52,691 bases of DNA from Acidimicrobiia bacterium. GTDB taxonomy: Bacteria; Actinomycetota; Acidimicrobiia; Spongiisociales; Spongiisociaceae. The position numbers were made by a program, and so were the translations under genes. The stretch lies in the NCBI GenBank assembly GCA_009841105.1, contig VXMM01000018.1:125780-178470 (forward strand), in the 5' to 3' direction. This document shows, piece by piece, positions 15,399 to 41,073 of this stretch; the first letter of the stretch is position 1; the number at the start of each line of letters is the position of its first letter. A model generated the notes under the pieces. It was not told the origin of the DNA, searched no databases, and saw only the letters and a list, made by a program, of their open reading frames with translations.

Positions 15399-15510
15399 CA
15401 GCAAGTCCTTGCCACAGACGCCGCTGGCGGCGCCATATCCCACCGCCGCGCCACAGACCGACCACGGGACCCGCGATAACAAGCGAACGCGCAACCTGAA
15501 TACGCCCTAG
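15399..15510. repeat. Dispersed repeat, copy 2
   Basis: Second copy of the element at 1-113, same orientation, with the identical 30-base core at 15419-15448 and the same hairpin (15419-15432). It lies between the convergent thiolase-like and deaminase genes; its last bases overlap the deaminase stop codon. This position would suit a two-way transcription terminator or a REP-like element. No coding frame is conserved between copies. Confidence 0.8.
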
Positions 15511-16097
15511 CTCCGGCGGGCCATCATCTTCTCGACCACCCCACCGATCGTGATGGTGAACACCTCAAGCGAGATCTTGATCAGTTCCCCCGAGCAGTCG
15601 GCTTGGGCGAAGGTCTGAGGCTCGGCGAGGTGGGCCCAGTGCGGGGCCAGGGTGGTCGGGCCGGTTATACCTCCCTTGCCCGCGTCGGACGCTACGTAGA
15701 GGGTGGTAGTGACAGCCGAGTTGATGATCCTGACCGTGCACATCTCGCACGGTTCGAGCGAGGTAACCAGGGTGTGACCCCTCAGATCCCCTCCGTTCGG
15801 GTGCCCGTCCTCGTACAGGTTCAACGCCGACATCTCAGCGTGGAGGTCGCTCCTGAATCGCGGTGCCAGCATCCGGTTGTGGTCGCTGACCAGAACCCGG
15901 CCGTGGGGATCGAGGATAAGGCAGCCCACCCCGGCGTTGCCCTCGAGTCCGGCCTCGATGGCCTCGTCGATGGCCTGGCGGGCGATGCCGTCATGAGGTC
16001 TCGTTCCGCCAAAGTTCTCGACTCGTTCCCGCAGGTCGAGCAACTGCATCCTCGTTGCTTCCGGGATGGTTCCGGCATCGTCAGGAAGTAAGCTCAT
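15507..16097 (-). CDS. Zinc-dependent cytidine/guanine-type deaminase
   Basis: A 196-residue CDA-fold deaminase. The zinc and proton-shuttle motif is H86-A-E88 and the Cys pair lies in PCEMC (117 and 120), as in guanine, cytosine and tRNA-adenosine deaminases. An N-terminal helical extension of about 45 residues and a helical tail frame the core. It removes an amino group from a nucleobase or similar heterocycle; which one is open. It is divergent from the large catabolic run starting at 16244 and shares its control region, which suggests that it acts on an intermediate or feeder of that pathway. Confidence 0.85.
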   Translation of the reverse strand: MSLLPDDAGTIPEATRMQLLDLRERVENFGGTRPHDGIARQAIDEAIEAGLEGNAGVGCLILDPHGRVLVSDHNRMLAPRFRSDLHAEMSALNLYEDGHPNGGDLRGHTLVTSLEPCEMCTVRIINSAVTTTLYVASDAGKGGITGPTTLAPHWAHLAEPQTFAQADCSGELIKISLEVFTITIGGVVEKMMARRS

Positions 16098-16179: not shown

Positions 16180-16243
16180 GGGCCGTCAGCACGGTCCTGA
16201 TCCGGGGAGATGGCGAACCGGCAGCGTGAAGGAGCTCAGGCAT

Positions 16244-17857
16244 ATGGCAAGACAACCTCTCGATCTGGTGATAACCAACGGAACCGTCGTGATGGGAGGC
16301 GGACGCTACCGGGTGGCGGTCGGCGTCAAGGACGGCAAGGTGGCCATGCTCGCCCCCGAGGAGCTGATGCCATCCGCCGAACGGACCATCGACGCCCGCG
16401 GGAACTACGTGCTTCCGGGAGTGGTGGACTCCGAGGCCCACCCGGGGTGCTACGTGCCGTTCGAATACGACATGACGACCGAGTCGAGGGCGGCTGCTGC
16501 TGCCGGCATCACCACCTGGGGTATCCAGGCGCCGACCACTCGCTTGGGTACGAAGCCGTTCAAGGAGGTAGTGGCTCGGGCCGATGTGGTCTCGTTCAAC
16601 GAGTCGTTTCCTTCAGGACGGGAAGTGATCAACGAGGTAAGCCACGTCGACGCGTACCTGACCTACATGCTCGAGACCGACGAGCATGCCCGGGAGATTC
16701 CCCAGTACGCCGAGGAGCACGGGGTCACCTCTTTCAAGCTGTACCTGCAGACCCGTTCGATGAAGGGCATGTCGGACGAGGACGACACCAACTGGCCGTC
16801 CCGGCGGGCCGGCCTGGGGGAGGGCATCGACGACGGCACGGTCTACCAGGTGATGGAGGAGGTCGCTCACCTCGGCCATCCGGGGATCGTCCACGTACAT
16901 GCCGAAAACTGGGAGATCGGGCGGGTCTTCGAGGACCGCCTCCTGGGTAGCGGTCGCACCGACTTCGGTGCCTGGACCGATCGCTCACCCGATTTCCTCG
17001 AAGCCCATCACATCCGCTCCTACGCCTACCTCGCCATGCAAACCCCGGGCCATGTTCCCCTCTATGTCCAGCACTGCACCACCAAGCTGTCCTTCGAGGA
17101 AGTGGTCCGGGCCCGCGCCGAGGGCCTGGAGTTGTACGCGCAGACCGGCCCGCCATGGCTCTGGGCCGAGCCCGAGTACGGCTGGCGGATCAACGTCCCG
17201 CTTCGCCGCCGGGACAACATCGAGGCGCTCTGGGTGGCACTGGCCGAGGGCATCGTGGATGCGGTCGGGTCCGATCACGTGGTGGCGTGGGAGCCATCCT
17301 CGTACGAGGCCATGTACGACCCGGTGATCTGGGACTGCCGTACCGGGTTTTCAAGGGTGGAGTTGTTCCTTCCCGTGATGCTGTCCGAAGGGGTCAACAA
17401 GGGGAGGATCAGCCTCGAGCGGGCCGTGCAGGTCAGTTGCGAGAACCCCGCCAAGACCTCCGGCCTCTGGGGAACCAAGGGCTCGCTCCTGCCGGGATTC
17501 GACGCAGACATCGTGATCATCGATCTAGGTCGGGAAGTGAAGGTCGGCAAGGAGCACATCAACACCAGGTCCGGCTGGTCGATCATGGAAGGCCATACCT
17601 TCACCGGCTGGCCCATCATGACCATCCTGAGGGGCGAGGTCAGCGCGGTTTGGGCGGATGATTCGCCCGGGATGCGCCCGGTCGGAGAACCGCGGGGCCG
17701 TTACCTGCCTCGCAAGCTGGGGCCCAAGCATCAGGTGCTGGACTCCAACAGTCCTGCCCGGGTGGCGCCCACCCACCGCTGGCTGGCCGACGACTTCGCC
17801 CGGCCCGGCTTCGCTCCGGAAACCACCAAGTACACCCGTCCGATAGGAGGATTGTGA
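16244..17857 (+). CDS. Hydantoinase/dihydropyrimidinase-like amidohydrolase
   Basis: A 537-residue cyclic-amide hydrolase of the dihydropyrimidinase/allantoinase branch. Putative metal residues: Lys165 (SFKLYLQ, the carboxylated Lys), His217/219 (HVHAEN), His277 (QHCT) and Asp344 (GSDH). The usual first motif Asp-x-His-x-His reads D62-S-E-A-H66, so the first His is Glu. This is a clear deviation and may change the metal or the reaction. The start is ATG 16244 with AAGGAG seven bases upstream; a longer open frame upstream has no family sequence. It is the first gene of the long plus-strand run. Confidence 0.88.
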   Translation: MARQPLDLVITNGTVVMGGGRYRVAVGVKDGKVAMLAPEELMPSAERTIDARGNYVLPGVVDSEAHPGCYVPFEYDMTTESRAAAAAGITTWGIQAPTTRLGTKPFKEVVARADVVSFNESFPSGREVINEVSHVDAYLTYMLETDEHAREIPQYAEEHGVTSFKLYLQTRSMKGMSDEDDTNWPSRRAGLGEGIDDGTVYQVMEEVAHLGHPGIVHVHAENWEIGRVFEDRLLGSGRTDFGAWTDRSPDFLEAHHIRSYAYLAMQTPGHVPLYVQHCTTKLSFEEVVRARAEGLELYAQTGPPWLWAEPEYGWRINVPLRRRDNIEALWVALAEGIVDAVGSDHVVAWEPSSYEAMYDPVIWDCRTGFSRVELFLPVMLSEGVNKGRISLERAVQVSCENPAKTSGLWGTKGSLLPGFDADIVIIDLGREVKVGKEHINTRSGWSIMEGHTFTGWPIMTILRGEVSAVWADDSPGMRPVGEPRGRYLPRKLGPKHQVLDSNSPARVAPTHRWLADDFARPGFAPETTKYTRPIGGL

Positions 17858-17958: not shown

Positions 17959-18714
17959 ATGGCTATCTGGGACGACGTCCTCACCGAGACCGATCGGCAG
18001 GTCTTCGCCGCGGCCGGTTGGGGCAGGCGCGCCGGCTACGGCGAGCGGCCCGCCATCATGGTCATCGACGTCAACTACAACTTCTGCGGGGACCGGGCCG
18101 AGCCGATCCTCGAGTCGATCGATCGTTGGCGGTACGCCTGCGGGCCCGAGGCGTGGGAGCGGGGGATCCCTGCCATCCAGGAGATTCTCGACGTGGCCCG
18201 CGCCAAGCGCCTCCCGGTCATCTATACCACCAACCCGCGCCGTCCGGATGGCTTCGACCTCGGGATTTGGTCGCTGAAGAGCACCAGGGCGGAGGACGAG
18301 GTGGATGTGATGGGACACAAGGGCAACGAGATCGTGGCCGAGGTGGCGCCTCGACCCGACGACCTGTTCATCGAGAAGCGTAAGCCGTCCGCCTTTTTCG
18401 GAACGCCGCTGGTGAGCCACCTGACCATGATGAGGGCCGATTCGCTGATCCTGACCGGCACCACCACCAGCGGATGCGTCCGAGCCAGCGCCGTGGATGC
18501 CCTCTCCAACGACTTCAAGGTCACGATCCCACACGAGGCGGTCTTCGATCGCGGCGAGGTGTCCCACAAGATCGCCCTCTTCGACCTGCACATGAAGTAT
18601 GTGGACGTGACCGACCTCGACGACGTTCTCACCTACCTGAAGCGCCTGCCCGTGGGCCTCTTCGACGACGCCTATCCACCGGCTGCGGCAGCCGCGCAGA
18701 GGGAGTCGCTGTGA
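17959..18714 (+). CDS. Isochorismatase-fold cysteine amidohydrolase
   Basis: A 251-residue hydrolase of the isochorismatase superfamily. The triad is Asp37 (VIDVNYNF), Lys142 (EKRKPSAF) and Cys173 (TSGCVRASA), with the preceding non-prolyl cis-peptide region LTGTTT. The longer N-terminus, the AGYGERPAIMVIDV opening and the TTNPRRPDG loop are seen in N-carbamoylsarcosine amidase, maleamate and ureidoacrylate amidohydrolase relatives. It should hydrolyse a linear amide or carbamoyl group to release ammonia, and so could act after ring opening. Its stop overlaps the GTG of the next gene by four bases. Confidence 0.88.
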   Translation: MAIWDDVLTETDRQVFAAAGWGRRAGYGERPAIMVIDVNYNFCGDRAEPILESIDRWRYACGPEAWERGIPAIQEILDVARAKRLPVIYTTNPRRPDGFDLGIWSLKSTRAEDEVDVMGHKGNEIVAEVAPRPDDLFIEKRKPSAFFGTPLVSHLTMMRADSLILTGTTTSGCVRASAVDALSNDFKVTIPHEAVFDRGEVSHKIALFDLHMKYVDVTDLDDVLTYLKRLPVGLFDDAYPPAAAAAQRESL

Positions 18715-19292
18715 GCCTTGACTTTTCCATCAGAAAGGTCATCAGCCAGATCGAGGAGGAGCGGATCCGGGAGGGGATCGCAGCAGATCGGCCGCTCCGA
18801 AGGGCGGTGGTGGCGGCGGCGATCCACAATCCCTACGCCGGGAGCTACCACGAGGACCTGTCGGAGGCCGTCGAGTTCTCGGCCGGCCTGGGCCGACTCC
18901 TCGGGGAGATGGTCATGGATGTTCTGGGAGAGCCGGTGGAGTCCTACGGCAAGGGAGGGATCGCCGGACTCGATGGATCGCAGGAGCACGCGGTCATGTT
19001 CCTGTCGACCGCGTTCGCCAACCCGCTCCGCGAGACCCTCGGCGGGGGAGTTGCCTGGATGTCCTCGGCCACGATCGTGGCGGCGGCAGGAACCCCAATC
19101 ACCATCCCCCTGGCTCACAAGGACGCCCTCTACGTCCGCGATCACTACGACGCCATAACGCTGCATCCCGGTGACGCGCCCCGGGCCGACGAAGTGCTGG
19201 TGGCCGTGGGGGCCGCCAACCGGGGGAGGCTCAACGCCCGGATGGGGGGCCTGGCACCTGAAGAGGTGGTGGGCGAGGACGGCCTGCGGTAA
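18711..19292 (+). CDS. DUF1185 (amino acid synthesis family) protein
   Basis: A 193-residue protein of the small-enzyme-like DUF1185 family, marked by RKVISQIEEERI, RRAVVAAAIHNPYAGSY, ESYGKGGIAG, IPLAHKDALYVRDHYDA and PRADEVLVAVG. The biochemical function is unproven; homologues are common beside amidohydrolase, racemase and isochorismatase-type genes. GTG 18711 is chosen because it overlaps the upstream TGA (GTGA) and matches the family N-terminus. The translational coupling suggests that it works with the amidase just before it. Confidence 0.85.
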   Translation: MSLDFSIRKVISQIEEERIREGIAADRPLRRAVVAAAIHNPYAGSYHEDLSEAVEFSAGLGRLLGEMVMDVLGEPVESYGKGGIAGLDGSQEHAVMFLSTAFANPLRETLGGGVAWMSSATIVAAAGTPITIPLAHKDALYVRDHYDAITLHPGDAPRADEVLVAVGAANRGRLNARMGGLAPEEVVGEDGLR

Positions 19293-19297
19293 CCCTG

Positions 19298-20491
19298 GTG
19301 ACACCCCGCCGGACCGCGATCGTCAACATCGGGACCCTTGTGACGGGCGACCTGGCGAGCCCGGTCGCCGATGCCGAGGCCCTGCTCATAGAGGACGGGG
19401 CGATTACCTCGATCGGATCCGCTGACGGCTATGAGCATGCCGACCAGGTGATCGACGCCAACGGAGCCACCGTCGGCCCGGGCCTGATCGACTCCCACTG
19501 CCACGTCGTGATCGGAGACTTCACCCCTCGCCAGAACGTGGTCGGCTTCCTCAGCTCGTACGTGCACGGTGGGATAACCCAGGTGATCTCGCCCGGTGAG
19601 ATCCACGCGCCGGGTCGACCGCACGATGCCGACGGCGTGGTCGCCTTAGCGGTGTTCGCGCAGCGGTCGTGGAGCAATTACCGGCCCAACGGGATGAAGG
19701 TCAACGGCGGGGCGGTGGTGCTCGAGCCGACTCTCCAACCCGAGCATTTCCGTTACCTGGCGGATCAGGGGGTCCGCCTGGGCAAGTTCGGTTTCGGCCG
19801 GTACGAGGACCCGGCCGACGGATTACCGCAGGTGCGGGCGGCACAAGACGTGGGGATCAAGGTGATGTGCCACTCCGGAGGGGCATCCATTCCGGGTTCG
19901 AAGCCCATCACCACCGATCACCTGATGCTGCTCCGTCCTGACGTGTGCGGCCATATCAACGGGGGTCCGACGTCGCTGGACTACGAGGGGATCATCCGGA
20001 TCGTGTCCACAACCGATCTGGTGCTGCAGATTGTCCAGGCAGGCAACCTGCGGAGCGCAATCCAGGTGGTGGAGGCGGTCCTCGAACACGGGGAGGAGCA
20101 CCGGATGATTCTCGGATCGGACACTCCGACCGGAACCGGTGTCATGCCGCTGGGGGTGCTCAAGACCATGGCCGAGCTCTCCTCCCTCACCGATGCCGAT
20201 CCGTCCACCGTTTGGGCTTGGGCCTCGGGAGTGATCGCCGATGTCTACGGCCTTGATGCCGGGAAGGTGGAGGTGGGCCGGGCCGCCGACCTGGTAATCG
20301 CCGACGCACCTTGGGGGTCGTACGGAGGTGACGCCCTCGGCGCTTTGGCCAGGGGTGACATTCCGGGCATCAGCGCGGTCCTCATCGACGGCCGGATCCG
20401 CGCCCTGCGGAGCCGCAACACCCCCGCCGCCGCCCGGCAGGTGACGGTCACTCCCGAGGTCGGGGAGCTCCCCGGCTCGGCCCACGTATGA
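19298..20491 (+). CDS. Enamidase-like amidohydrolase
   Basis: A 397-residue amidohydrolase that follows, by recall, the enamidase of anaerobic nicotinate fermentation (6-oxo-tetrahydronicotinate to 2-formylglutarate plus ammonia) along its whole length. Matching blocks include NIGTLVTGD, GGITQVISPGE, PGRPHDADG, NGMKVNGGAVVLE, CHSGGASIPG, HINGGPTS, TPTGTGVMPLG and GDIPGISAVLIDG. Metal residues are His67 and His69, His192, His219 and Asp274; Lys163 could be the carboxylated bridge where I remember a Glu in enamidase. No other nicotinate-fermentation gene is present, so the true substrate may be another cyclic enamide. The GTG start lies five bases after the upstream stop. Confidence 0.82.
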   Translation: MTPRRTAIVNIGTLVTGDLASPVADAEALLIEDGAITSIGSADGYEHADQVIDANGATVGPGLIDSHCHVVIGDFTPRQNVVGFLSSYVHGGITQVISPGEIHAPGRPHDADGVVALAVFAQRSWSNYRPNGMKVNGGAVVLEPTLQPEHFRYLADQGVRLGKFGFGRYEDPADGLPQVRAAQDVGIKVMCHSGGASIPGSKPITTDHLMLLRPDVCGHINGGPTSLDYEGIIRIVSTTDLVLQIVQAGNLRSAIQVVEAVLEHGEEHRMILGSDTPTGTGVMPLGVLKTMAELSSLTDADPSTVWAWASGVIADVYGLDAGKVEVGRAADLVIADAPWGSYGGDALGALARGDIPGISAVLIDGRIRALRSRNTPAAARQVTVTPEVGELPGSAHV

Positions 20492-20527: not shown

Positions 20528-21130
20528 ATGGACCAAGGAACCGAGGTCATGGTTCCGGCCCGGGAGGGTCGGGGCGTTTACATGCGCAAGGGTCAGCTGC
20601 TGGACATAGTCGATGTCGAAGGCCACCAGGTCGGCGACTTGATCGCTTGGTTCCGGAACGATCCCTCCGAGTACCTGTCACCCACGCACACCGTGTCTTG
20701 CAACGCCTCCATCGAGCTGGCCACCGGATCGCAGGTGTTCTCCAACCGCCGCAACCCGGTGTTCACCATCCTCCGGGACGACGTGGAACGCCACGACATC
20801 ATCGTCCCGTGCTGCGACCACGAGCGTTACAAGCGGGACTACGACCTCGACGATCACGACAATTGCCTGGCCAACCTCCACGAGGCGCGTGACCAGCTCG
20901 GGGAGGACTTCGAACTCCACGGCGAGATGGCCTGGAATGTGTTCATGCATAACCGGGTGACCGACCGGGGGGACGTGGTGACCGACCCGGCCGACCACGA
21001 TGCGGGGTCCACGATGACCTTGCTGGCCCATGAGGACCTGGTGGTGCTCCTGTCTGCATGCACCCAGGACCTCACCCCGTGCAACGACTTCAATCCCACC
21101 TCGATGCTGATGAGGCTGCGGGACAACTAG
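20528..21130 (+). CDS. DUF1989 (urea carboxylase-associated family) protein
   Basis: A 200-residue protein of the DUF1989 family found near urea carboxylase and allophanate hydrolase genes. Conserved marks are GRGVYMRKGQLLDIVDVEG, FSNRRNPVFTIL, the Cys pair in PCCDHERY (95 and 96), NCLANL, and the closing ACTQDLTPCNDF. The Cys and His residues suggest a metal or catalytic thiol, but the activity is not established. The start is ATG 20528 with AGGAGAAACAGG upstream. It is followed after 19 bases by the DUF5591 gene; the pair is probably functionally linked. Confidence 0.85.
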   Translation: MDQGTEVMVPAREGRGVYMRKGQLLDIVDVEGHQVGDLIAWFRNDPSEYLSPTHTVSCNASIELATGSQVFSNRRNPVFTILRDDVERHDIIVPCCDHERYKRDYDLDDHDNCLANLHEARDQLGEDFELHGEMAWNVFMHNRVTDRGDVVTDPADHDAGSTMTLLAHEDLVVLLSACTQDLTPCNDFNPTSMLMRLRDN

Positions 21131-21149
21131 AGAGTTCGGGGAGGACCTA

Positions 21150-22184
21150 ATGACCACATCCATCCGGTACGAGCCGGACGCCACCCGTTTGGCTGAGTCG
21201 GCCCGCAAGATCCGCTCTCCCTTCGAGCTCGATCTGTCGCTCCGGTTCTACTCGCCGCAGGCCAACCTCGACGGCATGCAGCATCCGCAGATAGCCGACT
21301 GGCACCACTACATCGGCGAGGAGTGGACGCCGCCGCTCACGCCCGCCGGCGCGCGACGGGTAGCGCTCCTCATTCCCTGCACCAAATACAAGCCCTACTC
21401 GACCAGCCGGGAGCATCGGGCTATCAACGGGGCGCTGCTGGATGCAGGCTGGCATCCCGACGGCGCTTCCACCGCACCGGCGGAACTGGCCGGCTACCTG
21501 GACGACGGAGAGAGCCCAGATCTCCTCCACGACGGACCGCTCCGGCGCGATGATGTCTTCCTGGATCGGTTCGTGCTGTCGGAGCCGATGGCGATCGTGC
21601 CCTATTCCCACATCTACTACTGGCGAGACGCCCCTAGTCCCGCCGCTTGCTACGACGATCCCGGTCTGTTCGAGGCGCGCGGGACGTCGGTGTCGCCCGA
21701 GCGCCCCGACTGCACGGCCACCCCGCTCGGCAACGGGAAGTGGAGGTGGGGTCCGGCGGAACGCCAGGCTTTTGCCGAGACCCACAACTATCTGGCCGGG
21801 ATCATTCGCCGATGCCTGGTCAGGCTGTCGCCCGCCTATGCGGAGATAGGTGCCTGGGTCTCGCCGGGCCTCACCCACCGCAGCTTCCTGGCTGACGACG
21901 CGTTCCGGCGGTTGGAGGGCTTGCCGCAGTCCCGGAAGGGCGCCACGGGGCCGGTCAAGCTGGTCGGGGTCCTGGAAGGCGCTCCCGGCCTGGTCACGAT
22001 GATGCCCACCCAGGATCAACTCGAGGACGCCCGTCGACGCCTGGCGGGAAGGCTGGAGGCGGAAGGTCGTCCGGCCACGCCGGCTGCGGTGCGGGCGGTC
22101 TATGCCCGCGGGGACGGGAACGACACCCCGCTCGGTCTGCCCGAGGCCCTCGCCCATCTCACCGGCTGGCTCGACACCGCATGA
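21150..22184 (+). CDS. DUF5591 (archaeosine-synthase-like) protein
   Basis: A 344-residue protein whose core VALLIPCTKYKPYSTSREHR (71-90) matches the DUF5591 domain of archaeal ArcS, with Cys77, Lys79 and Lys81 as likely functional residues. In Archaea this domain is part of the enzyme that adds lysine to and then reworks preQ0 in tRNA. Here no tRNA-guanine transglycosylase or PUA domain is attached, and the neighbours are catabolic. The flanks (DWHHYIGEEWTPP before the core, a ~100-residue helical tail after) are not recognised. I infer a repurposed amide, nitrile or lyase chemistry. Its stop overlaps the next ATG (ATGA). Confidence 0.7.
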   Translation: MTTSIRYEPDATRLAESARKIRSPFELDLSLRFYSPQANLDGMQHPQIADWHHYIGEEWTPPLTPAGARRVALLIPCTKYKPYSTSREHRAINGALLDAGWHPDGASTAPAELAGYLDDGESPDLLHDGPLRRDDVFLDRFVLSEPMAIVPYSHIYYWRDAPSPAACYDDPGLFEARGTSVSPERPDCTATPLGNGKWRWGPAERQAFAETHNYLAGIIRRCLVRLSPAYAEIGAWVSPGLTHRSFLADDAFRRLEGLPQSRKGATGPVKLVGVLEGAPGLVTMMPTQDQLEDARRRLAGRLEAEGRPATPAAVRAVYARGDGNDTPLGLPEALAHLTGWLDTA

Positions 22185-22864
22185 CCGACGACCTGGAGCG
22201 GCTGCGTAGCGCCGTCGCCTCGACCGCCCGCATGCTGGCTTCCGCCGGGCTGGTCGAGGCCTTCGGGCACGTCTCTGCCCGCACTCCTACCGGGTTTCTC
22301 ATCACCAGCACTAGCCCGCTGTTCGAGGCCACCGCCGATGACGTGATCGGGGTCGAGTCCGGTGTGCCTGCGAGCGGGCCGACCGGCGCAGCCCCACTGG
22401 AGATGCCCATGCATGCCGCCATCTACGATGCCCGGCCCGATGTGGCGGCCATCTGCCGCGGCCACCCGCCGTACGTGGTGACCTGGGGGGTGTCCGACGA
22501 GCCGCTGCCTCTCCTGCACGGGCTGGGTGGCATGGCGGGCCGGACCGTGCGAACGCATCCGGACATCGAGTTGGTCAAGACCGCCGAGTCCGGGGAGTCG
22601 GTGGCCCGCACTTTGGCGGAGGACTCCTGCGTCCTGCTGGCTGCCAACGGGTGCCTCGCCGTGGGCGCCGACCTGCTGGAAGCCGCCACCCGTCTGTGGT
22701 ACCTGGAGGAGAGGGCGCGGGTGGTGGTCCAGGTTCGCAACGCCGGCCTGACCCCGGCAACGGTTCGCGAATACACCTGGGCCCGGCGTCTCCTCGACTC
22801 CGCTCCGGAGCTGGTTAGAGCCCGGGAATGGATGCGCCGGACTTTCGCTCCTGAGCGGGAATAG
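22181..22864 (+). CDS. Class II aldolase/adducin-fold protein with altered zinc site
   Basis: A 227-residue protein of the FucA/AraD aldolase family. The fold marks are AFGHVSAR, PLEMPMHAAIYDARPDVAA and ICRGHPPYVVTW. Typical enzymes hold Zn by a His-x-His and a third His in NHG. Here these read R93-G-H95 and A-N156-G, so two of three ligands appear lost, while Glu74 is kept. It may not be a metal aldolase; decarboxylase or non-enzymatic roles are possible. The four-base overlap with the DUF5591 gene shows tight coupling. Confidence 0.75.
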   Translation: MTDDLERLRSAVASTARMLASAGLVEAFGHVSARTPTGFLITSTSPLFEATADDVIGVESGVPASGPTGAAPLEMPMHAAIYDARPDVAAICRGHPPYVVTWGVSDEPLPLLHGLGGMAGRTVRTHPDIELVKTAESGESVARTLAEDSCVLLAANGCLAVGADLLEAATRLWYLEERARVVVQVRNAGLTPATVREYTWARRLLDSAPELVRAREWMRRTFAPERE

Positions 22865-22878: not shown

Positions 22879-24144
22879 ATGAGCGATCTCGCCGGCAAGC
22901 AACTCGACCACCAACCGGAGATGTCCGCCGACGAGGCCGACGCCTTCAGGAACGACTTCGTCCGCCACCTTTGCCAGACCGTTCCCGGCATCAAGGAGAG
23001 TGTGATCGTGGACGCGGCCGGCTGCTCGCTCAAGACCGCCGAGGGCCGGATCCTTCTCGACATGATCTCGGGCATCGCGGTCTCCAACCTGGGTCACTGC
23101 CATCCGGCGGTGGTCAAGGCCGTGCAGGACCAGGTTGCCCGGTTCTCGCACGTCGACGTGTACGGCCGGTTCACGCTGCCCCCGCAGGTGGAGATCGCCC
23201 GGCGGCTGGCCTCGGTCACGCCCGGCGATCTGGACGTGGCCTTTCTCACTAGTACCGGCACGGAGGCGACGGAGGGTGCCCTGAAGCTGGCCCGCAAGTA
23301 CACGGGCCGTCCCGGGTTCGTGGCGTTCCAGCGTGCGTTCCATGGGCGCACGTTCGGTTCGCTCTCGGTGACCTGGCGGGAGGAGTGGCGCAAGCCCTTC
23401 GAGCCTCTTCTCGAACCGGTGCGTTTCGCTCCATTCGACGACCTCGATGCGGCCGACCGGGCCATAGACGACGCCATCGCCGCCGTGATCGTCGAGCCGA
23501 TCCAGGGCGAGGGCGGGGTGCGCATCCCTTCGGATGGGTTCCTTCCGGGGCTCCGGGAGCTGTGTACCGAACGGGGTGCGTTGCTGATCTGCGACGAGGT
23601 CCAGGGTGGTATGGGGCGATCCGGCAAGTGGTTCTCATGCCAGAACTGGGGGGTGACACCCGATGTGATCACCGTTGCGAAGGCCTTCGGCGGCGGCCTG
23701 CCCCTGGGCGCCTTCATTTCCACCGCCGAGATCTTCTCCACCTTCCTGGACCCGCCGCTGTCCCACCTGACCACGTTCGGTGGGAACCCGGTTTCCTGCG
23801 CTGCCGCCGTAGCCGCCTTCGACGTGATCCGGGGCCAGGGCCTGGTGGAGAGAGCCGCGGAGATGGGGGAGTACCTCCGGGTCGGCCTCCGTTCCGTCCG
23901 CCGGACCCATCCCGGGACGTTGGCAGGCATCCGCGGCATGGGCCTGTGGTGCGCCTTCGACGTCAATCCGGCCCACCTGGCTCAGCCCCTGGTCGAGGAG
24001 ATGGCCCGCCGCGGTGTAGTGGTCGGGTCGATGCTCAACTCGGCCGGAACGGTCCGGGTGGCCCCACCGCTGGTGGTCGAGCAGGAACACATCGACCGGT
24101 TCCTCGGGATCCTGGAAAGCTCCCTGAACACCCTGGAGGGCTGA
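22879..24144 (+). CDS. Class III PLP-dependent aminotransferase
   Basis: A 421-residue omega-aminotransferase of the 4-aminobutyrate/2,2-dialkylglycine decarboxylase branch. PLP-binding parts are GTEAT after LTST, FHGRTFGS, Asp239 in CDEVQGGMGRSG and Lys268 in VAKAFGGGLPLGAF. The glutamate-binding loop TTFGGNPVSCAAA is complete. It would transfer or remove an amino group from an amine or omega-amino acid produced in the pathway. Its TGA shares one base with the next ATG. GAGAGGCACTCC before ATG 22879 is a modest ribosome site. Confidence 0.93.
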   Translation: MSDLAGKQLDHQPEMSADEADAFRNDFVRHLCQTVPGIKESVIVDAAGCSLKTAEGRILLDMISGIAVSNLGHCHPAVVKAVQDQVARFSHVDVYGRFTLPPQVEIARRLASVTPGDLDVAFLTSTGTEATEGALKLARKYTGRPGFVAFQRAFHGRTFGSLSVTWREEWRKPFEPLLEPVRFAPFDDLDAADRAIDDAIAAVIVEPIQGEGGVRIPSDGFLPGLRELCTERGALLICDEVQGGMGRSGKWFSCQNWGVTPDVITVAKAFGGGLPLGAFISTAEIFSTFLDPPLSHLTTFGGNPVSCAAAVAAFDVIRGQGLVERAAEMGEYLRVGLRSVRRTHPGTLAGIRGMGLWCAFDVNPAHLAQPLVEEMARRGVVVGSMLNSAGTVRVAPPLVVEQEHIDRFLGILESSLNTLEG

Positions 24145-25526
24145 TGCCGCCTTCCGTTCCTCCCGGCGAGCAGTTGATCGTCCGGGGCGCCTGGGTGCTG
24201 ACCATGGGACCCGATGGCGCCATCGAAAACGGGGCCGTCCATATCGAGGGTGGCGGGATCACCTCGGTGGGTCCATACCGGGTGTTGAGGAGGCAGCATC
24301 CAGACGTGGCCGTGGTGGGCGACGAGCACAGCATCGTGCTTCCGGGTCTCATCAACGCCCACACCCACCTCTCCGAGGCGCTCGTTCCCGGTATGGGTTC
24401 GGAGCTGAGCCTCTACGAATGGGGCGAACGCCTGGTCACTCCCGTTTCGAGGAACCTCACGGCGGAGATGGCGCGGGAGGGGACCATCCTGAAGGCCGCC
24501 GAGATGATCCGTTCCGGGATCACCTTCGTCAACGACATGTTCGTCCACTCCAATCCCGGCACCCGCGCTTCGCTGGGCGTGGTCGAGGGCCTCGCGGAAG
24601 TTGGTCTTCGTGGAGCGGTCAGCTTCGGCGCGGAGGATGCCCTGGGAGACACTTCCTCAACCCCTCCGATGGCGGTCGAGGAGGTCCTCGAGGAGCATCA
24701 CGACCTGGCGGCTGCGGCCCAGGAGTCCGGTCTGGGGTTCCGGTACGGAATCGGGACCCTGCTCGGGCAGTCCGAAGAGCTGCTAGAAGCCGGAGCGGCA
24801 GCCTGCCGTGAGAACGGCTGGGGGGTTCACACCCATCTCTCCGAGGTACGGGAAGAGGTTGTCCACTCCTCCTTGCGGTGGGGGCGGCGCCCGGTATCGC
24901 AAGCGGCTCACCTGGGCTTTCTCGATGTCCCGCTCCTGGCCGCCCACGCCATCTGGGTGACCCAGGAGGACATCGACATCCTGGCGGGGGCGAGGGCGGG
25001 GATAGCCCACAACCCGGTGGCCAACATGATCCTTGGTTCCGGCGTGTGCCCGCTGGCGCGGCTACAAGCCGCCGGCCTCGAGGTGGGAATCGGAACCGAC
25101 GGGGCGGCTTCCAACGATTCCCAGAACATGCTCGAAGCCGTGAAGATGGCCGCCCTCCTCCAGAAGGTCCACGAACTCGATCCGGCGGTGATCTCCGCCA
25201 AGACGGTGCTGCAGATGGCCACCATCGGCGGCGCCAGGCTGCTGGGCGTGGATGGTCAGGTGGGGAGCCTGGAGGCCGGGAAGCGGGCCGACGTGGTCCT
25301 GCTGCGCGGAACGGTGGAACTGGCCGCCGTCCACGACCCCTACCAGCAGGTGGTCTACTGCGCCGGTCCCGCCTCGGTCAGCGACGTCTGGGTAGAGGGG
25401 CGCAGGGTTCTTGCGGGCCGGTTCTTGACCACCATCGACGAAGCCGCCCAGATAGCCCGGGGGCGGTCGCTGGCCCGCGCGGTGGTCCGGGAGGCGGGGT
25501 TGGCTGGCGTTCACTCGTTCCTATGA
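24144..25526 (+). CDS. Atz/Trz-type metal-dependent amidohydrolase (copy 1)
   Basis: A 460-residue deaminase or dechlorinase-type hydrolase of the AtzB/TrzN/SsnA group of the amidohydrolase superfamily, usually acting on amino-substituted heterocycles. Metal and catalytic residues: His73 and His75 (NAHTHLSE), His229, His231 and Glu234 (VHTHLSEVREE), His268 (AAHAIWV) and Asp319 (GTDGAASND). It resembles the product of 37571-38923 over its length, sharing SNDSQNMLEA and HNPV-NMIL. The start is ATG 24144, which overlaps the aminotransferase stop; the frame continues open upstream without family sequence. Confidence 0.9.
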   Translation: MPPSVPPGEQLIVRGAWVLTMGPDGAIENGAVHIEGGGITSVGPYRVLRRQHPDVAVVGDEHSIVLPGLINAHTHLSEALVPGMGSELSLYEWGERLVTPVSRNLTAEMAREGTILKAAEMIRSGITFVNDMFVHSNPGTRASLGVVEGLAEVGLRGAVSFGAEDALGDTSSTPPMAVEEVLEEHHDLAAAAQESGLGFRYGIGTLLGQSEELLEAGAAACRENGWGVHTHLSEVREEVVHSSLRWGRRPVSQAAHLGFLDVPLLAAHAIWVTQEDIDILAGARAGIAHNPVANMILGSGVCPLARLQAAGLEVGIGTDGAASNDSQNMLEAVKMAALLQKVHELDPAVISAKTVLQMATIGGARLLGVDGQVGSLEAGKRADVVLLRGTVELAAVHDPYQQVVYCAGPASVSDVWVEGRRVLAGRFLTTIDEAAQIARGRSLARAVVREAGLAGVHSFL

Positions 25527-27097
25527 CCCGGGTTGCGGTGATCGGCGGGGGCCACAACGGCCTGGTCTGTGCATGCTTCCTTGCCAAAGCCGGCCTCGAC
25601 GTCACCGTTTTCGAGGCCAACGCGACGGCGGGCGGGTGTATCTGGACCGACCAGCTTGCTTCCGGCTACCGCCTGGAGCGGGGCGCCATCGATCACGGCA
25701 TGATCCTCGGCATCGCTGAAGAGCTGGGTCTGGCCCGGTTCGGCCTGGAGTACGCCTTCCGGGAGGTGTCGGTCGGGGCAGGCTTCGGGGACGGTACGCG
25801 GTTGCTGTTCCACAGGGACCTGTCAACCACCCTGGCGGGTTTCGGCGCCCTCGACCCCCGAGATGTAGAGGGCTACCGGCGGCTATCGGAGCTGGGAACC
25901 GGTCTGCTTGGGATGATGGATGCCTTCACCACCCCGCCGTCGCTGGCCCAGATCGCCGAGCTGGGGTCCGTTGCCGGATTCGACCCGCTCCGGACGGTTT
26001 TGGCCTCAGCCGAGAAGGTGGTCGGTGCCCACATCTCCGATCCACACCTGGCCAATGCGCTAACGATGTACGGGGCGTTGAGCCAAGTCCCTCCATGGCT
26101 GCCCGGTAGCGGCCTGTTCGGCCTGCTGCTGGCCGGTTCGCACGGCCACGGGGCCGGCCGCCCCATCGGTGGCTCCGTCCAGTTGGTCAATGCCCTGGTC
26201 GGTGCCCTCGAGTCGGCTGGCGGGAAGATCCTCACCGACGCAGCGGTGGCGTCGATCCATCGGTCGGGCGCCAAGTCAAGGGTCACCACTGCCTCGAGCG
26301 ATACGGCCACCTTCGACATGGTGGTCTCGGCGCTCGACGTGGCGCGCACCGCCCGGCTTATGGCCGAGCCCGTGCCGGAGCTCGACGAGGCGGCCCGGAC
26401 GGTGACCAGCGGATCGCTCAATGTTGCCGAGTTCAAGGTGGATCTGGCGCTGTCCGCCGAGGCCGAGCCCGGTCGGTTCGGTCACCCCGAGGCGATCTGG
26501 CTGCTGCAGCAACACCCCGGTTCCATGGCCCGGTCGTTCGGCGAGATCGCCGCCGGCAGTTTCCCGTCGGAACCGGCCATGCTCTGGGCCTCTCCCTCGG
26601 CCCTGGACCCGTCGGCCGCGCCCGAGGGAGGCGGCGTAGCCTGGTTGTCGACCTTCGTGCCGGCCCGTCTCAAACAGGGAGAGTGGACCGAGGCGGAGGT
26701 GTCGAGGCATGCAGAGCGCGTGACCGACGGCTACCAGGCCATCACCGGCGTCTCGCTCAGGGACCGGATCGTTGAGAAGCGGGTAACCGGCCCTCAGGAC
26801 TGGGAGAGGCGCACGGGCGCCAGGTTCGGCAATCCCAACCACATCGACATGACCATCGACCAAATGTTCTCACTCCGGCCCGGCGCCGGCCGCGGCTACC
26901 GGACCGCCGTTCCCTGGCTCTACCTGACGGGCGCCGGCACATTCCCGGGCGGGGGCTTGTCGGGTGTGCCGGGTAAGAACGCCGCGCTGACCGTACTCCA
27001 CGACCTGGGCCGCAAGCGTTCCCGGCAGGCCGAGCCGTCCACTATGTCGACGCTGGTCCGCGGTTGGCGAATGTATCGTTCCCTGAGGAAGCGATGA
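25523..27097 (+). CDS. FAD-dependent oxidoreductase, phytoene-desaturase-like
   Basis: A 524-residue flavoprotein. The N-terminal dinucleotide fold is VAVIGGGHNGLVCACFLAKAG, followed by VFEANATAGG. The C-terminal FAD segment is YLTGAGTFPGGGLSGVPGKN. This layout matches NAD(P)-binding phytoene desaturase and carotenoid isomerase-like (RetSat) proteins rather than simple amine oxidases. In this neighbourhood it probably dehydrogenates a C-C or C-N bond of a pathway intermediate and is not a carotenoid enzyme; no carotenoid gene is nearby. The start overlaps the upstream stop by four bases, and its own stop overlaps the next ATG. Confidence 0.87.
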   Translation: MTRVAVIGGGHNGLVCACFLAKAGLDVTVFEANATAGGCIWTDQLASGYRLERGAIDHGMILGIAEELGLARFGLEYAFREVSVGAGFGDGTRLLFHRDLSTTLAGFGALDPRDVEGYRRLSELGTGLLGMMDAFTTPPSLAQIAELGSVAGFDPLRTVLASAEKVVGAHISDPHLANALTMYGALSQVPPWLPGSGLFGLLLAGSHGHGAGRPIGGSVQLVNALVGALESAGGKILTDAAVASIHRSGAKSRVTTASSDTATFDMVVSALDVARTARLMAEPVPELDEAARTVTSGSLNVAEFKVDLALSAEAEPGRFGHPEAIWLLQQHPGSMARSFGEIAAGSFPSEPAMLWASPSALDPSAAPEGGGVAWLSTFVPARLKQGEWTEAEVSRHAERVTDGYQAITGVSLRDRIVEKRVTGPQDWERRTGARFGNPNHIDMTIDQMFSLRPGAGRGYRTAVPWLYLTGAGTFPGGGLSGVPGKNAALTVLHDLGRKRSRQAEPSTMSTLVRGWRMYRSLRKR

Positions 27098-28065
27098 TCG
27101 ACAACGACTGGCAGCTCATCGACCTGATCACCGGGTACCAGCCTGCCACGGCGATCACGACCGCCCATCGGCTGGGCGTGTTCTCGGTTCTCGGGCGCGT
27201 TCCCCGGTCGGCCGGTGACATGGCAGCGGAGTTGGCGGTGGATGCCACCAACCTCGGGGCCTTGCTGGAGGCGTTGGTCGGGATCGGCCTGCTGCGCAGG
27301 GAGGGCGACCGGTTTGTCGCCACGCCCTACACCGCGGAGCGCCTGGGTCCGGGCGGGGAGATGGGCCTCGTAGTGGCTAAGGAAGCAGTGTTCGCCGGGG
27401 CCTGGTCTCGCCTGGACGAGGTGGTGACCGAAGGGCGTCCCGTTATGGAACCCTGGCGATTCCAGCTCGACCGGAATCCGGCGCAAGCGCGGGCCTTCCT
27501 GGAGGCGCTCGATGTTCTCGCCAGGATCGCGGGACCGGCGCTCCACGAACTCGAAGCGCTCGCTCCTGGGAAGCGGGTGCTGGACGTGGGTGGTGGACTC
27601 GGAACCTACGCCCGACTGCTCTCCGAGGCGGGCTCTCGTGTCACCCTGGTCGACTACCCCCTCGTCACCGGCTGGGCAAGCGAGGAGTTGGAGGGCACCG
27701 GAGTGGAGGTGGTCGGGGTGGACCTCTTCGAGCATCCTTCGTGTGGGGTCCCGCCCGGATCGATGGACGCGGCCCTCGTGTCCCACTTGATCCATGACCT
27801 CGCCGAGGACCAGGCGGTGGAACTGCTTCGCAGGGTGCGGTCGGCGATCGCACCGGGCGGCCGCGTCGTGGTCAACGACTTCGCCGGTGACAGCGGTCCA
27901 GGAGCGTTCGGCGCCCTCTTCGATGTCATGATGAGGGTCGAGACCGGTGGAGCGGCCCATTCGAGGGCAACCCTGGAGTCCATGCTGGCCGGGGCGGGGT
28001 TCGAGAGGATCAGGCGGTTGCCGTACGACGATCCCCTCACGGTCTACATAGGCGTCAGGCCATGA
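27094..28065 (+). CDS. SAM-dependent methyltransferase, O-methyltransferase type
   Basis: A 323-residue methyltransferase of the acetylserotonin/caffeate O-methyltransferase (plant/fungal-type dimerising) group. A winged-helix dimer domain covers ~1-95 (AHRLGVFSVLGRVPRSAGDMA), then SAM motif I is VLDVGGGLGTYARLL with acidic VTLVDYP, and later IAPGGRVVVND. It would methylate or recognise a hydroxylated substrate; some relatives are decarboxylases. ATG 27094 overlaps the FAD gene stop (ATGA). This is the last gene of the run; after it GC content drops and a new unit begins. Confidence 0.85.
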   Translation: MIDNDWQLIDLITGYQPATAITTAHRLGVFSVLGRVPRSAGDMAAELAVDATNLGALLEALVGIGLLRREGDRFVATPYTAERLGPGGEMGLVVAKEAVFAGAWSRLDEVVTEGRPVMEPWRFQLDRNPAQARAFLEALDVLARIAGPALHELEALAPGKRVLDVGGGLGTYARLLSEAGSRVTLVDYPLVTGWASEELEGTGVEVVGVDLFEHPSCGVPPGSMDAALVSHLIHDLAEDQAVELLRRVRSAIAPGGRVVVNDFAGDSGPGAFGALFDVMMRVETGGAAHSRATLESMLAGAGFERIRRLPYDDPLTVYIGVRP

Positions 28066-29647: not shown

Positions 29648-29678
29648 GAAGAAAGAGGGTTTCATTACGCAGTTATGA

Positions 29679-30758: not shown

Positions 30759-30783
30759 ACGGGATTGGTAGCAATCTTGTCGT

Positions 30784-30812: not shown

Positions 30813-30861
30813 CCTCTGAAGAGCGACGTCTCGATGAGAAGAGCGACCAGGATGCTAGAGG

Positions 30862-37570: not shown

Positions 37571-38923
37571 TCAGGAAGGGGCCAGCAGTGAATGTTGTCC
37601 GAGCTGCGCGCGGCGGGCCAGCTTCCGAGCCAGGGGTCGCGAACCTTCCACAACGTCCACAAGATCGACGTTGGTGACCTCCCCGTTCGCTACCGATCTC
37701 GATCCGGCCACCCACACGTCGGAGACCTCTCGTGGGCCGGCGCAGTAGACGACCTTCTGGAACGGGTCGTGGACATTGGCCAGGGCCGGGGAGGAGCCGT
37801 CGAATACCACCAGGTCGGCCTGCTTGCCCGGTTCTATGGAACCGAGTTCGCCATCGAGGCGGAGGGCTCGGGCGCCCTCGATGGTGGCCATCGCCATCGC
37901 ATCACGAGCGGACAGAGCGGTCGCCTGGAGCCGGTCGACCCGCTGGAGGAGCACTGCCATCTTGATCGCTTCGAGCATGTTCTGGCTGTCGTTGCTGGCG
38001 GGTCCGTCCACGCCGATCCCGACTGCCACACCAAGGCGGCGTAGGGCGGGAACCGGGCACACACCGGATGCAAGGATCATGTTCGAGACCGGGTTGTGAG
38101 CCACCCCCACTCCGTGCTCCGCCAGCAGGTCTCGATCGCTCTCGTCCAACCACACGCAGTGGGCGGCGATGGTGGGACCGTCGAACAGGCCCAGACGAGC
38201 GCACTGCTCGATGGGTGACCGCCCCGTGGCGGCCCTCACCGCTGTCACCTCCTCGCGGACCTCGTGGAGGTGTATGTGGCTTCCGTGGGCTGCGGAGAGC
38301 CTCACAGAGTGCTCGAAGAGTTCCTCCGACTGCGCGCCCATGAGCGCGATCCCGACTCGGAAACGGGACAGGCGGCTCGCTTCGCACGCCTCCCGTAGGG
38401 CGGCATGCTCTTCGAGGATCGCCGACACGGCAACTCCCCTACGGTCGGCGGCGCCGAAGGTGACCACCCCGCGCATCCCCAACTCGTCCAGCGCCCGGAC
38501 GATCCCGGGGGTGACAGGTTTATCGGCCGGGTCGCAGACGTACATGTCACTCGCCACGGTGATTCCGGTCCGGAGCATCTGAATGCCGGCCAGGAGCGTG
38601 CCCACGTAGGCCATCTCGTGGTCGTGATGGGGCGCTGTGGGATTGATCACCGCCTCGATCCACTCCCAGAGGGTGAAGTCCTCGGCGATGCCTGTGAAGA
38701 GGCCTTCCGAGAAGTGTCCGTGGGTATTGACGAACCCGGGTGTGATGATGGAGTGGCGGTCTCCCTGAACCTCATCGTCCGGATGGCGGGCGCTCAGGTC
38801 GGTCCATGTCCCGACTTCGTCGATCAGGTCGCCGACGATACGAACCGCTCCGTCCTCGATCATCTCCGGTGTCGAAGAGGTCAGGACGTAGCCGCCCCGG
38901 ACCAGGATCCCGCGGTCCGTCAC
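37571..38923 (-). CDS. Atz/Trz-type metal-dependent amidohydrolase (copy 2)
   Basis: A 450-residue paralogue of the enzyme at 24144-25526. Metal residues include His68 and His70 (NTHGHFSEG), HIHLHEVREE, AAHCVWL and DGPASND. Compared with copy 1, the metal motif is THGH rather than AHTH, and GIGTDG reads GIGVDG, so the Asp of the usual TDG is kept only as the D of DG. The GTG start (38923) overlaps the nitrilase stop by four bases. In this operon it probably deaminates or dechlorinates an imported heterocycle after, or in parallel with, the nitrilase. Confidence 0.88.
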   Translation of the reverse strand: MTDRGILVRGGYVLTSSTPEMIEDGAVRIVGDLIDEVGTWTDLSARHPDDEVQGDRHSIITPGFVNTHGHFSEGLFTGIAEDFTLWEWIEAVINPTAPHHDHEMAYVGTLLAGIQMLRTGITVASDMYVCDPADKPVTPGIVRALDELGMRGVVTFGAADRRGVAVSAILEEHAALREACEASRLSRFRVGIALMGAQSEELFEHSVRLSAAHGSHIHLHEVREEVTAVRAATGRSPIEQCARLGLFDGPTIAAHCVWLDESDRDLLAEHGVGVAHNPVSNMILASGVCPVPALRRLGVAVGIGVDGPASNDSQNMLEAIKMAVLLQRVDRLQATALSARDAMAMATIEGARALRLDGELGSIEPGKQADLVVFDGSSPALANVHDPFQKVVYCAGPREVSDVWVAGSRSVANGEVTNVDLVDVVEGSRPLARKLARRAQLGQHSLLAPS

Positions 38924-39786
38924 TGCGACGGGGGAGGGGTGTGGAAGTCGTACAGGTCGGTACCCGGCTTCACCAACTCCTCGTAGAGTTCCGGACGGCG
39001 GGCCCTGAGCAGGCCGGGAATGGATGAGAAGCCCTTGGGCTCCACCATCGAGTCGTCGTTCGACCTAAGCCACTCCACCCGTTCCAGGTCAAGGTTGGCC
39101 AGGAGCAGTTCCTCCGTTCCCGAACTCACCACCACGTATTCCGGGCCGGCGATCATCGCGGCGCCCACCTCGTCGCGCCAGATGTTGTTGGTCATGGCTA
39201 CGTAGCAGAGATTCTCCATGGCCCTGGCACGGACGATGGTCTGCCAGTTGTCCGTGAGAGAGGTGAATCCGCCGCCGGCCGGGGACAGGATCAGTTGGGC
39301 GCCTCGTAGGGCCAGCACGCGGGTGGGCTCGGGTATCCACAGTTCCGAGCACACCACGATCCCCATCCGGACCCCGTCAATCTCGATAAGAGCCAGATCG
39401 GGCCCCGGCGCCACCCAGACCCTCGTCTCGTCGGGCGGGAGGGTGGCCGGATGGGCCCGCTCGTAACGCAGCAACAGCCGCCCTCCGCGGTCCACTGCGT
39501 AGACCACCAGGCGGTACTTCCCGTCAGCACACAACTCCATGCGGCTCCAGCACACGGAGATGTTGTTGTCCACCGCGGCGGCCTCCATGGCGTCGGTCGC
39601 CTCGTATGTGTCTCGGGGCTTTCCGAGCACCGGACCCGGGTATCCCTCGGGGAACAGGATCAGGTCGGCCCCGAGATCGGCTGCCCGGGCGGCCAGTTCC
39701 ACCGCCCGGGCAACGTTCACTTCAGCGTCGGGATCCACCACCGTGCGCGGTTGCGCAACGGCGAGCCGGAAGGATCCCGTCGCCAT
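38920..39786 (-). CDS. Nitrilase-superfamily C-N hydrolase with Arg at the Lys position
   Basis: A 288-residue carbon-nitrogen hydrolase. Glu47 (ILFPEGYPG) and Cys146 (GIVVCSELW) occupy the catalytic places. The third residue is normally Lys in a YRKxH motif; here the stretch is RYERAHPATLPPDE, with Arg110 in that place. Activity may be altered, or the alignment may shift by a residue. The start is ATG 39786, four bases after the binding-protein stop. An open frame extends further upstream but only as antisense of that gene. Confidence 0.85.
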   Translation of the reverse strand: MATGSFRLAVAQPRTVVDPDAEVNVARAVELAARAADLGADLILFPEGYPGPVLGKPRDTYEATDAMEAAAVDNNISVCWSRMELCADGKYRLVVYAVDRGGRLLLRYERAHPATLPPDETRVWVAPGPDLALIEIDGVRMGIVVCSELWIPEPTRVLALRGAQLILSPAGGGFTSLTDNWQTIVRARAMENLCYVAMTNNIWRDEVGAAMIAGPEYVVVSSGTEELLLANLDLERVEWLRSNDDSMVEPKGFSSIPGLLRARRPELYEELVKPGTDLYDFHTPPPSQ

Positions 39787-39790
39787 CTCC

Positions 39791-40993
39791 TTACAGCCCG
39801 ATCGAGAAGTCGATGAACTCGTTGGTGACGAGGTCTTCGGGCGCGAGGCCGCTGACGTCGGCCTCGGTGACCTGGCCGATAATCTCCAACAACCCGACGA
39901 CCCGGTCCATGTCGAAGTCGCCGAGGGTGTCGTTATCACCGTTGCCCATGATGCCGAGTTCCAGCATCGTGGACACCGCGAAGTCGGCCACGCCCTGGGT
40001 GTAGATCCATCCGGTGTCGTAGACGTCCACCAATTCCAGGATCAACTGGTTGGTCGGATCCGGGTTGTTCAGGAAGTCCACGTGGGCCTGCTGGATGATG
40101 GGCACCACTTCCCGGAGGCAGTCGGCCCGGTCGGTGGCATCGGCGGCCCGGACACCGAGCGCCTGGAAGTACTCCTCGAAGCCGGTGTCGTGGATCAGTT
40201 GGGTCCTGACGGGCTTGCCCCACTCGGGCACCTCCACCTCGTAGATGTAGGGCTCGGCGGTCGCAAACCCGGCCTCGGCGACCTCGCCGCCGGCGCCGAT
40301 GAACGCGGCCGGCTTGGGCGCGTCGGTCAGGTCCATCTGGGACTCGTCCATGATCCCCTCGGCGATCCACCAGTCCTGGAACACGTCTGGGCGTCCGAGC
40401 AGTATGATCGCCCCTTCGTCCTTGAGGTCGGCGATCTTGTCGACGTTCGGGTATGTCTCCGGGTCCCAGTAGACCGCGAAAGCGCTCTTCTCGAACGTCG
40501 CCATCACGCTCACGACCGGGACGTCCGCATAGGTCGACATGGCTTCGGTCGCCCGGACGAAGCCCATGAAGATGTCCTGGTCCTGGTACAGCAGCGACTG
40601 CACCGGCTGGAAGCCGACCGCGAAGCCGCCGATACGCACCTCGATATCGATGCCGGTGTCCTCGCCGCCCGCGACCAGCGGACCGCGGACGCTCTTGGCG
40701 TCGTTGTTGATCTCGTAACCGGGACCGACCAACTGGTAGATGCCGCCGTGCTCCGACTCGGGTTCCCAGTCGAGCTGGATCACGAGCGGGTCGGGGCAGA
40801 CATCCGCCAGCGTCATCGCGGCAGCCTCTGTCGTAGCAGGTGCTGCGGTCGTGGCCGGCGCTGCGGTGGTAGCCGGCGCCGCCGTGGTGGCGGGGGCTTC
40901 CTCTTCGCCGCCGCACGCCGCTGCCACCAGCGACAGAGCGGCGATCAGAGCGAGCGTGGTTACCGCCCGTCCTCCTATCCGATGTCTTCTCAT
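39791..40993 (-). CDS. ABC importer binding lipoprotein, NMT1/THI5-SsuA-like
   Basis: A 400-residue lipid-anchored binding protein. The lipobox LSLVAAAC gives Cys27, followed by a linker in which Ala-Thr-Thr-Ala-Ala-Pro is repeated three times. The body has the SsuA/ThiY plan: IQLDWEPESEHGGIY at the mouth, then VQSLLYQDQDIFMGFVR. Relatives bind sulfonates, taurine, nitrate or pyrimidine precursors of thiamin. The aromatic-facing LDW-E-H residues and the adjoining deaminase-type genes make a pyrimidine-like ligand attractive, as inference. AGGAGG lies before the start. Confidence 0.87.
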   Translation of the reverse strand: MRRHRIGGRAVTTLALIAALSLVAAACGGEEEAPATTAAPATTAAPATTAAPATTEAAAMTLADVCPDPLVIQLDWEPESEHGGIYQLVGPGYEINNDAKSVRGPLVAGGEDTGIDIEVRIGGFAVGFQPVQSLLYQDQDIFMGFVRATEAMSTYADVPVVSVMATFEKSAFAVYWDPETYPNVDKIADLKDEGAIILLGRPDVFQDWWIAEGIMDESQMDLTDAPKPAAFIGAGGEVAEAGFATAEPYIYEVEVPEWGKPVRTQLIHDTGFEEYFQALGVRAADATDRADCLREVVPIIQQAHVDFLNNPDPTNQLILELVDVYDTGWIYTQGVADFAVSTMLELGIMGNGDNDTLGDFDMDRVVGLLEIIGQVTEADVSGLAPEDLVTNEFIDFSIGL

Positions 40994-41073
40994 GTCGGCC
41001 TCCTTTCCGATCTTCCGTTGCTGTCTGTTGTTGTGGCTCCCGGCCGCGCACGCTCACGGTCGGGTTAGCACGC

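Follow-up and report, generated by a model that had tools for sequence, protein, structure and literature searches.

A stand-alone bacterial ArcS-type (DUF5591) core domain in a catabolic gene island of Acidimicrobiia

ArcS-type domains are so far known from tRNA and phage DNA modification. Archaeosine synthase ArcS of Euryarchaea (NCBIfam models NF040592 and NF053620) transfers lysine to preQ0 and accepts the free preQ0 nucleoside 5′-phosphate without tRNA (PMC11298593). QueF and QueF-like (QueF-L) proteins attack the same preQ0 nitrile to give a covalent thioimide (PMC5485725), and it has been suggested that phage ArcS homologues may also hydrolyse (PMC6884629). We found no mutational data for ArcS, and our literature search for DUF5591 returned no match. 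Proteins that consist of the DUF5591 domain without TGT or PUA domains are encoded, as hypothetical proteins, by Sulfolobus virus STSV2 (ORF16, 185 aa, L078:1423-1980) and Vibrio phage nt-1 (VPFG_00169, 226 aa, L079:1333-2013). Haloarchaeal plasmids encode TGT-DUF5591 fusions (L048:1447-3450 and L049:1426-3447); the Natrinema fusion gene lies upstream of a DEAD/DEAH helicase gene, possibly in a DNA-modification system.

The window analysed here is a 52,691-nucleotide stretch of an Acidimicrobiia genome (3.05 Mb, 97.5% complete), and the loci closest to it that bear a name come from Acidimicrobiia MAGs. The first-pass annotation had singled out a 344-residue ArcS-type protein devoid of TGT and PUA domains, whose gene was said to follow a DUF1989 gene after 19 bases and to overlap an aldolase-fold gene by four. 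Both the spacing and the overlap (ATGA) are as described, the motif ALLIPCTKYKPYS is present, and a Pfam search found neither a TGT nor a PUA domain in the protein. Since the DUF1989 and 344-codon ORFs are conserved at the amino acid level across genomes, both are real genes and not chance ORFs. They lie in a gene island that appears to be catabolic (Table 1).

Table 1. Genes of the island, with positions in the window, strand and the matches or features recorded for each.
Product	Position	Strand	Remarks
Cytidine/dCMP-deaminase-fold protein	15507..16097	-	PF00383 E 1.8e-13
Hydantoinase/dihydropyrimidinase-like amidohydrolase	16241..17857	+	PDB 1gkr L-hydantoinase E 4.6e-50
Isochorismatase-fold amidase, N-carbamoylsarcosine amidohydrolase-like	17959..18714	+	
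'Amino acid synthesis' PF06684/DUF1185 protein	18717..19292	+	PF06684 E 4.9e-56
Enamidase-like amidohydrolase	19298..20491	+	PDB 2vun ENAMIDASE E 1.6e-106
DUF1989 protein	20528..21130	+	200 aa; PF09347 E 1.4e-40; putative Zn triad C96/C113/C178
DUF5591-like protein	21150..22184	+	344 aa; ArcS core at about residues 66-252, followed by an additional C-terminal region; Cys77 motif PCTKYKPYSTSREH
Class II aldolase-fold protein	22181..22864	+	PF00596 E 3.5e-27
Class III aminotransferase (AT3), acetylornithine/putrescine type	22879..24144	+	PF00202 E 2.9e-110
Atz/Trz-type amidohydrolase, MTA/SAH- or 8-oxoguanine-deaminase-like	24147..25526	+	
Phytoene-desaturase-like FAD oxidoreductase	25520..27097	+	
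Methyltransf_2-type methyltransferase (OMT)	27064..28065	+	PF00891 E 1.6e-17
Second Atz/Trz-type amidohydrolase of the island	37574..38923	-	adjoins nitrilase in L011, L012
Carbon-nitrogen hydrolase, nitrilase superfamily	38923..39939	-	PF00795 E 3.7e-31
ABC transporter	39939..42707	-	SBP 39939-41057, permease 41077-41931, ATPase 41931-42707
Acetylpolyamine-amidohydrolase-like protein (histone deacetylase fold)	42779..43801	+	PF00850 E 3.7e-61; 61% to L012 homologue

The family assignment was assessed by several comparisons. The DUF5591 profile PF17884 matched the window protein over residues 69-96 only, at 23.5 bits against a curated Pfam cut-off of 26 bits, while relatives of the same subfamily exceeded the cut-off (30.7 bits in G165/L020 and 34.5 bits in Rhizobium); the profile search that had been proposed thus places the relatives in the family, but not the window protein on its own score. 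In hhalign, residues 66-252 aligned with positions 2-115 of an archaeal template, the whole core being collinear (probability 95.8%, E 7.9e-9). The template had three rows, AF0587 and two haloarchaeal TGT-DUF5591 proteins, and the latter two were retrieved with a motif fragment of AF0587, which biases the alignment toward the first motif; these haloarchaeal rows are near full-length PF17884 matches (E about 1e-20), independently of that retrieval. By tblastn, the window protein matched an STSV2 protein (E 5e-3), itself a PF17884 member at E 8e-20, and proteins of STSV-type archaeal viruses gave E values of 2e-3 to 6e-2. An AlphaFold model (pLDDT 89.8) searched against viral models with Foldseek had a sole significant match, the DUF5591 protein of Vibrio phage nt-1 (E 1.4e-4, probability 1.00, TMt 0.59). 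Foldseek against the PDB gave no significant match. The uncharacterised archaeal protein AF0587 (PDB 2q07), which has the same core domain, was the only plausible match in a PDB sequence search (E 0.067; E 0.0013 by profile search), with just about 25 residues aligned directly, and was absent from the structural matches listed for both the full model and a poorer core-only model (pLDDT 77). Taken together, these comparisons bear out the ArcS-type identity: the bacterial protein is homologous to ArcS-type proteins over the whole core.

Cys77, Pro82, Tyr83, Ser86, Ser144, Pro151, Pro164 and Tyr168 are invariant across seven diverse sequences that include catabolic bacterial, archaeal ArcS-type and viral proteins. 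The bacterial protein has thus retained the cysteine motif together with the matching S...VP...Y motif; catabolic proteins carry insertions at about residues 97-135 and 170-200 and an added C-terminal region of about 90 residues. With ArcS, it shares a DUF5591 core that bears the PC..KPY..S..H, S...VP and Y motifs collinearly over ~115 template residues. Unlike ArcS, it has no TGT-like N-terminal or PUA domain; the NCBIfam ArcS models covered only about residues 39-96, at 23.5 and 28.2 bits against cut-offs of 440 and 600, and the gene occurs in TGT-less genomes and in a catabolic context. It resembles the viral proteins in being free of TGT and PUA domains, but is about 120-160 residues longer, and the phage nt-1 gene is flanked by genes for deazaguanine modification of DNA (QueD-like and GTP cyclohydrolase I). 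The 344-residue protein is a bacterial stand-alone ArcS core domain in a catabolic context and not an archaeosine synthase; it is conserved and uncharacterised, a catabolic-context variant of a known domain family.

The subfamily is sparse. Relatives were found in 9/10 genomes of the window's genus, in 15 of the 138 genomes of the order and in 3 of 296 of the phylum, in two actinobacterial families (2/201 and 2/199 genomes) and in one class (3/199), and in a single plasmid, from Rhizobium, among 72,556 plasmid records; a scan of viral_contigs with the subfamily profile found no relatives. Carriers of the gene differ in their TGT content: the TGT family (PF01702), recovered in all 14 control genomes, had no match in G022, G308 (Actinocorallia), G311 (Nocardioides) and G724, and was present in G000, G165, G305, G309, G413 and G807, with one TGT in the window's own genome. 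Since G022 is only 90% complete, single absences are not absolute; with four DUF5591 genomes devoid of TGT, a tRNA role is unlikely there, and on the strength of these genomes we rejected tRNA modification by bacterial DUF5591.

The catabolic context that had been proposed was upheld. When the window's genes were mapped onto all loci, DUF5591 recurred in a core whose other members are AT3, an Atz/Trz amidohydrolase, an FAD enzyme resembling phytoene desaturase and an O-methyltransferase-like gene; in G165, G807 and G724 the core is looser, AT3 not being found near DUF5591. Outside the window's own family, most loci have an aldehyde dehydrogenase (ALDH) gene next to DUF5591 or close by; a linked ALDH is absent from the window's own genome, the best paralogue being 34-36% identical. 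Other recurrent companions of the core are an ABC transporter (immediately 5′ of DUF5591 in L016, L018, G968 and G413), a nitrilase-superfamily hydrolase (relatives directly adjoin DUF5591 in G807 and G724), another Atz/Trz enzyme and an acetylpolyamine-amidohydrolase-like gene. Among PDB entries, acetylpolyamine amidohydrolases match the L012 homologue of the last of these (E 1e-83). For the ABC binding protein, the PDB yielded no match and hence no hint of a ligand.

Two exchangeable modules are found upstream of the core. Module I, present in the window, L009, L011, L015, G551, G022 and G165 and in part in L012, L013 and L017 (short contigs), consists of hydantoinase-like and N-carbamoylsarcosine-amidase-like enzymes, the PF06684 protein, the enamidase homologue and DUF1989. 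Its enamidase-like protein is a full-length homologue of the enamidase of nicotinate fermentation, but no other enzyme of that pathway was recognised in the window. Module II, found on the Rhizobium plasmid, in Mycolicibacterium (L016/L041) and in G413, contains an HpaB monooxygenase, an amidase, a PuuE-allantoinase-like enzyme (TIGR03212 E 9.8e-95) and a further Atz gene, to which some loci add an FMO, a flavin reductase and an arylmalonate-decarboxylase/EutA-like protein. Enzymes of kinds that open the ring of a cyclic ureide or amide are present in both modules, a hint, short of proof, that the intermediates are of a similar type; the cyclic-ureide processing is deduced from homologies that are distant and fall far short of equivalog cut-offs.

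Several features of the surroundings may be recorded here. By eye, the hydantoinase-like protein has ExH (VVDSEAHPG) in place of the HxH that normally forms the first metal-binding motif of this superfamily, and the metal site may be altered. A sulfatase gene (9970-12594) and a gene resembling the alpha subunit of Rieske ring-hydroxylating oxygenases (12623-13927) lie upstream of the island. A block 3′ of the operon (28298-34992) with a second ABC transporter (SBP_bac_8/PotD type), an M20 peptidase and an alcohol dehydrogenase is near-identical (97-99%) in L002/L003, and no copy was found at the corresponding position in L004-L006. In Rhizobium CP021373.1 (L065, 95-113 kb), genes for a cytosine deaminase, an allophanate hydrolase, two isochorismatase-type hydrolases and a transporter stand beside the DUF5591 cluster, in what amounts to a broader N-heterocycle/urea-type region.

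The explanation that we favour, tentatively and at somewhat less than even chances, is that the protein is an ArcS-core small-molecule enzyme whose Cys77 would act on a nitrile or amidine carbon during breakdown of an N-heterocycle, both reaction and substrate being inferred. DUF5591 would have left RNA modification for an island degrading an amino-substituted N-heterocycle. The Atz/Trz deaminases would remove exocyclic amino groups to yield a cyclic ureide, whose ring would be opened by the hydantoinase, carbamoyl-amidase, enamidase and DUF1989 module in the window and by the HpaB/FMO, PuuE-like and amidase module in Rhizobium and mycobacteria. Cys77, a putative nucleophile judging from its conservation and by analogy with QueF, would attack the nitrile or amidine carbon to form a thioimidate, and DUF5591 would then add, exchange or hydrolyse an amine; an omega-amino product or co-substrate may be handled by the aminotransferase and aldehyde dehydrogenase. 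With an intact Cys77 motif and adjacent AT3/ALDH genes, the likeliest activity of the bacterial protein is formation or cleavage of a C-N bond at the carbon of a nitrile or amidine, and the aminotransferase would either take up or supply the amine. The AT3/ALDH link could also reflect another part of the pathway. As for the substrate, 7-deazaguanines, pterins and other 2-amino heterocycles would be about equally good matches for the set of deaminases and ureide hydrolases. Pathways for ectoine, nicotinate, thiamine pyrimidine, pterins and creatinine were set aside: on general grounds each suits some island genes, and none was recognised as complete.

A narrower alternative, which we consider rather unlikely, is that the island degrades or salvages 7-deazaguanines (preQ0, preQ1, queuine or breakdown products of archaeosine) and that the 7-substituent is the target of DUF5591, as it is of ArcS. 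Characterised ArcS-core proteins do work in 7-deazaguanine chemistry (PMC11298593; PMC6884629), the phage nt-1 homologue has FolE as one neighbour, and preQ1 breakdown would be a suitable task for Atz enzymes of the guanine-deaminase-like type together with ureide hydrolases and AT3/ALDH. However, no queuosine genes were recognised in the island, the substrate is deduced solely from family membership, and the invariant motif may read the nitrile or amidine and not the deazaguanine ring. Among the papers listed by a literature search, judged by titles and abstract openings, none described queuine catabolism.

The first-pass annotation had also proposed that DUF1989 and DUF5591 together carry out a single amide, guanidine or nitrile reaction, as a complex or as consecutive enzymes. 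The neighbourhood is indeed kept elsewhere: in Acidimicrobiia-type loci, Actinocorallia and a Propionibacteriaceae MAG the two genes are direct neighbours in the same orientation with little space between them, and they share a cluster in G022 and G165, with DUF1989 in the same cluster as DUF5591 in 11/19 representative loci. In the other 8/19, however, DUF5591 occurs without DUF1989, which is missing genome-wide from three whole genomes with DUF5591 (G307, G311 and G413). It is also absent from the Rhizobium plasmid, and Mycolicibacterium G309 has just two distant copies elsewhere (27-33% identity). The core linkage persists without DUF1989 in L014, L016, L018, G968 and G413 and, more loosely, in G807, G724 and Rhizobium. 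On the DUF5591 tree, the DUF1989 label needs four changes, at least three of them forced by well-supported branches. An enamidase gene was found wherever DUF1989 was, given a long enough flank, and enamidase and PF06684 genes are paired without DUF5591 on Thermomicrobium and Agrobacterium plasmids; DUF5591 itself tracks the AT3, ALDH, Atz/Trz, FAD-oxidase and OMT genes. Given the enamidase co-occurrence, the absences and the label changes, DUF1989 is best filed with module I as an accessory of the enamidase module and not as an obligate partner of DUF5591. The pairing is real in several lineages, but that it forms the functional unit is not supported, and we regard a shared reaction as distinctly unlikely.

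The DUF1989 protein belongs clearly to its family (PF09347, 139 bits against a cut-off of 27), and its putative Zn ligands are invariant in 37 aligned copies, as are H89 and H110; their spacing is close to that of the Zn cysteines C263, C279 and C343 of TMAO demethylase Tdm (PMC12560246). It shares the fold and three conserved cysteines with Tdm and with UAAP1/UAAP2 (carboxyguanidine deiminase CgdAB), but is present as a single copy, lacks a GCV_T domain, is coupled to enamidase and falls below the UAAP1/UAAP2 equivalog cut-offs (99 vs 284.7 and 60.2 vs 206 bits). A guanidine pathway was rejected on these scores. DUF5591 itself may still act on an amidine or nitrile.

A role resembling that of uracil-DNA glycosylases (UDGs), in which DUF5591 would be an N-glycosidase or base-binding protein freeing the heterocycle from a sugar, is very unlikely. 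The top structural alignments of the full model, made with VIA, do include Thermus UDG 2d3y (ranked first, Z 5.2, 155 residues, rmsd 3.9), SMUG1 and UdgX; yet a Z of about 5 is typical of common arrangements, tubulins tie with 2d3y, the matches listed for the core-only model include no UDG, and the core has no recognised genes for sugar handling. A fold relationship with UDGs is nevertheless a possibility. We give equally little credit to a non-catalytic role as sensor, chaperone or scaffold of the catabolic enzymes, which would suit a rare accessory gene of no known activity, but not active-site-like residues, including the cysteine, that are invariant across very distant members, nor a gene that stays with the enzyme core through module exchange.

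The island and its two interchangeable upstream modules point to an unassigned N-heterocycle catabolic pathway in Actinomycetota and on a Rhizobium plasmid. That these DUF5591 proteins would be the first ArcS-core enzymes to act on free small molecules in catabolism, making or breaking the amidine of an N-heterocycle and possibly serving an undescribed 7-deazaguanine route, is unlikely as a whole. A stand-alone, patchily distributed bacterial branch that keeps its cysteine motif, is found in TGT-less genomes and is linked to aminotransferase, aldehyde dehydrogenase and deaminase genes would extend ArcS-type chemistry to primary metabolism, and as a soluble protein it would make the ArcS reaction, itself poorly understood, easier to study. 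In bacteria from soil and sponges, a reduced relative of ArcS is encoded in an island that apparently degrades a nitrogen-ring compound.
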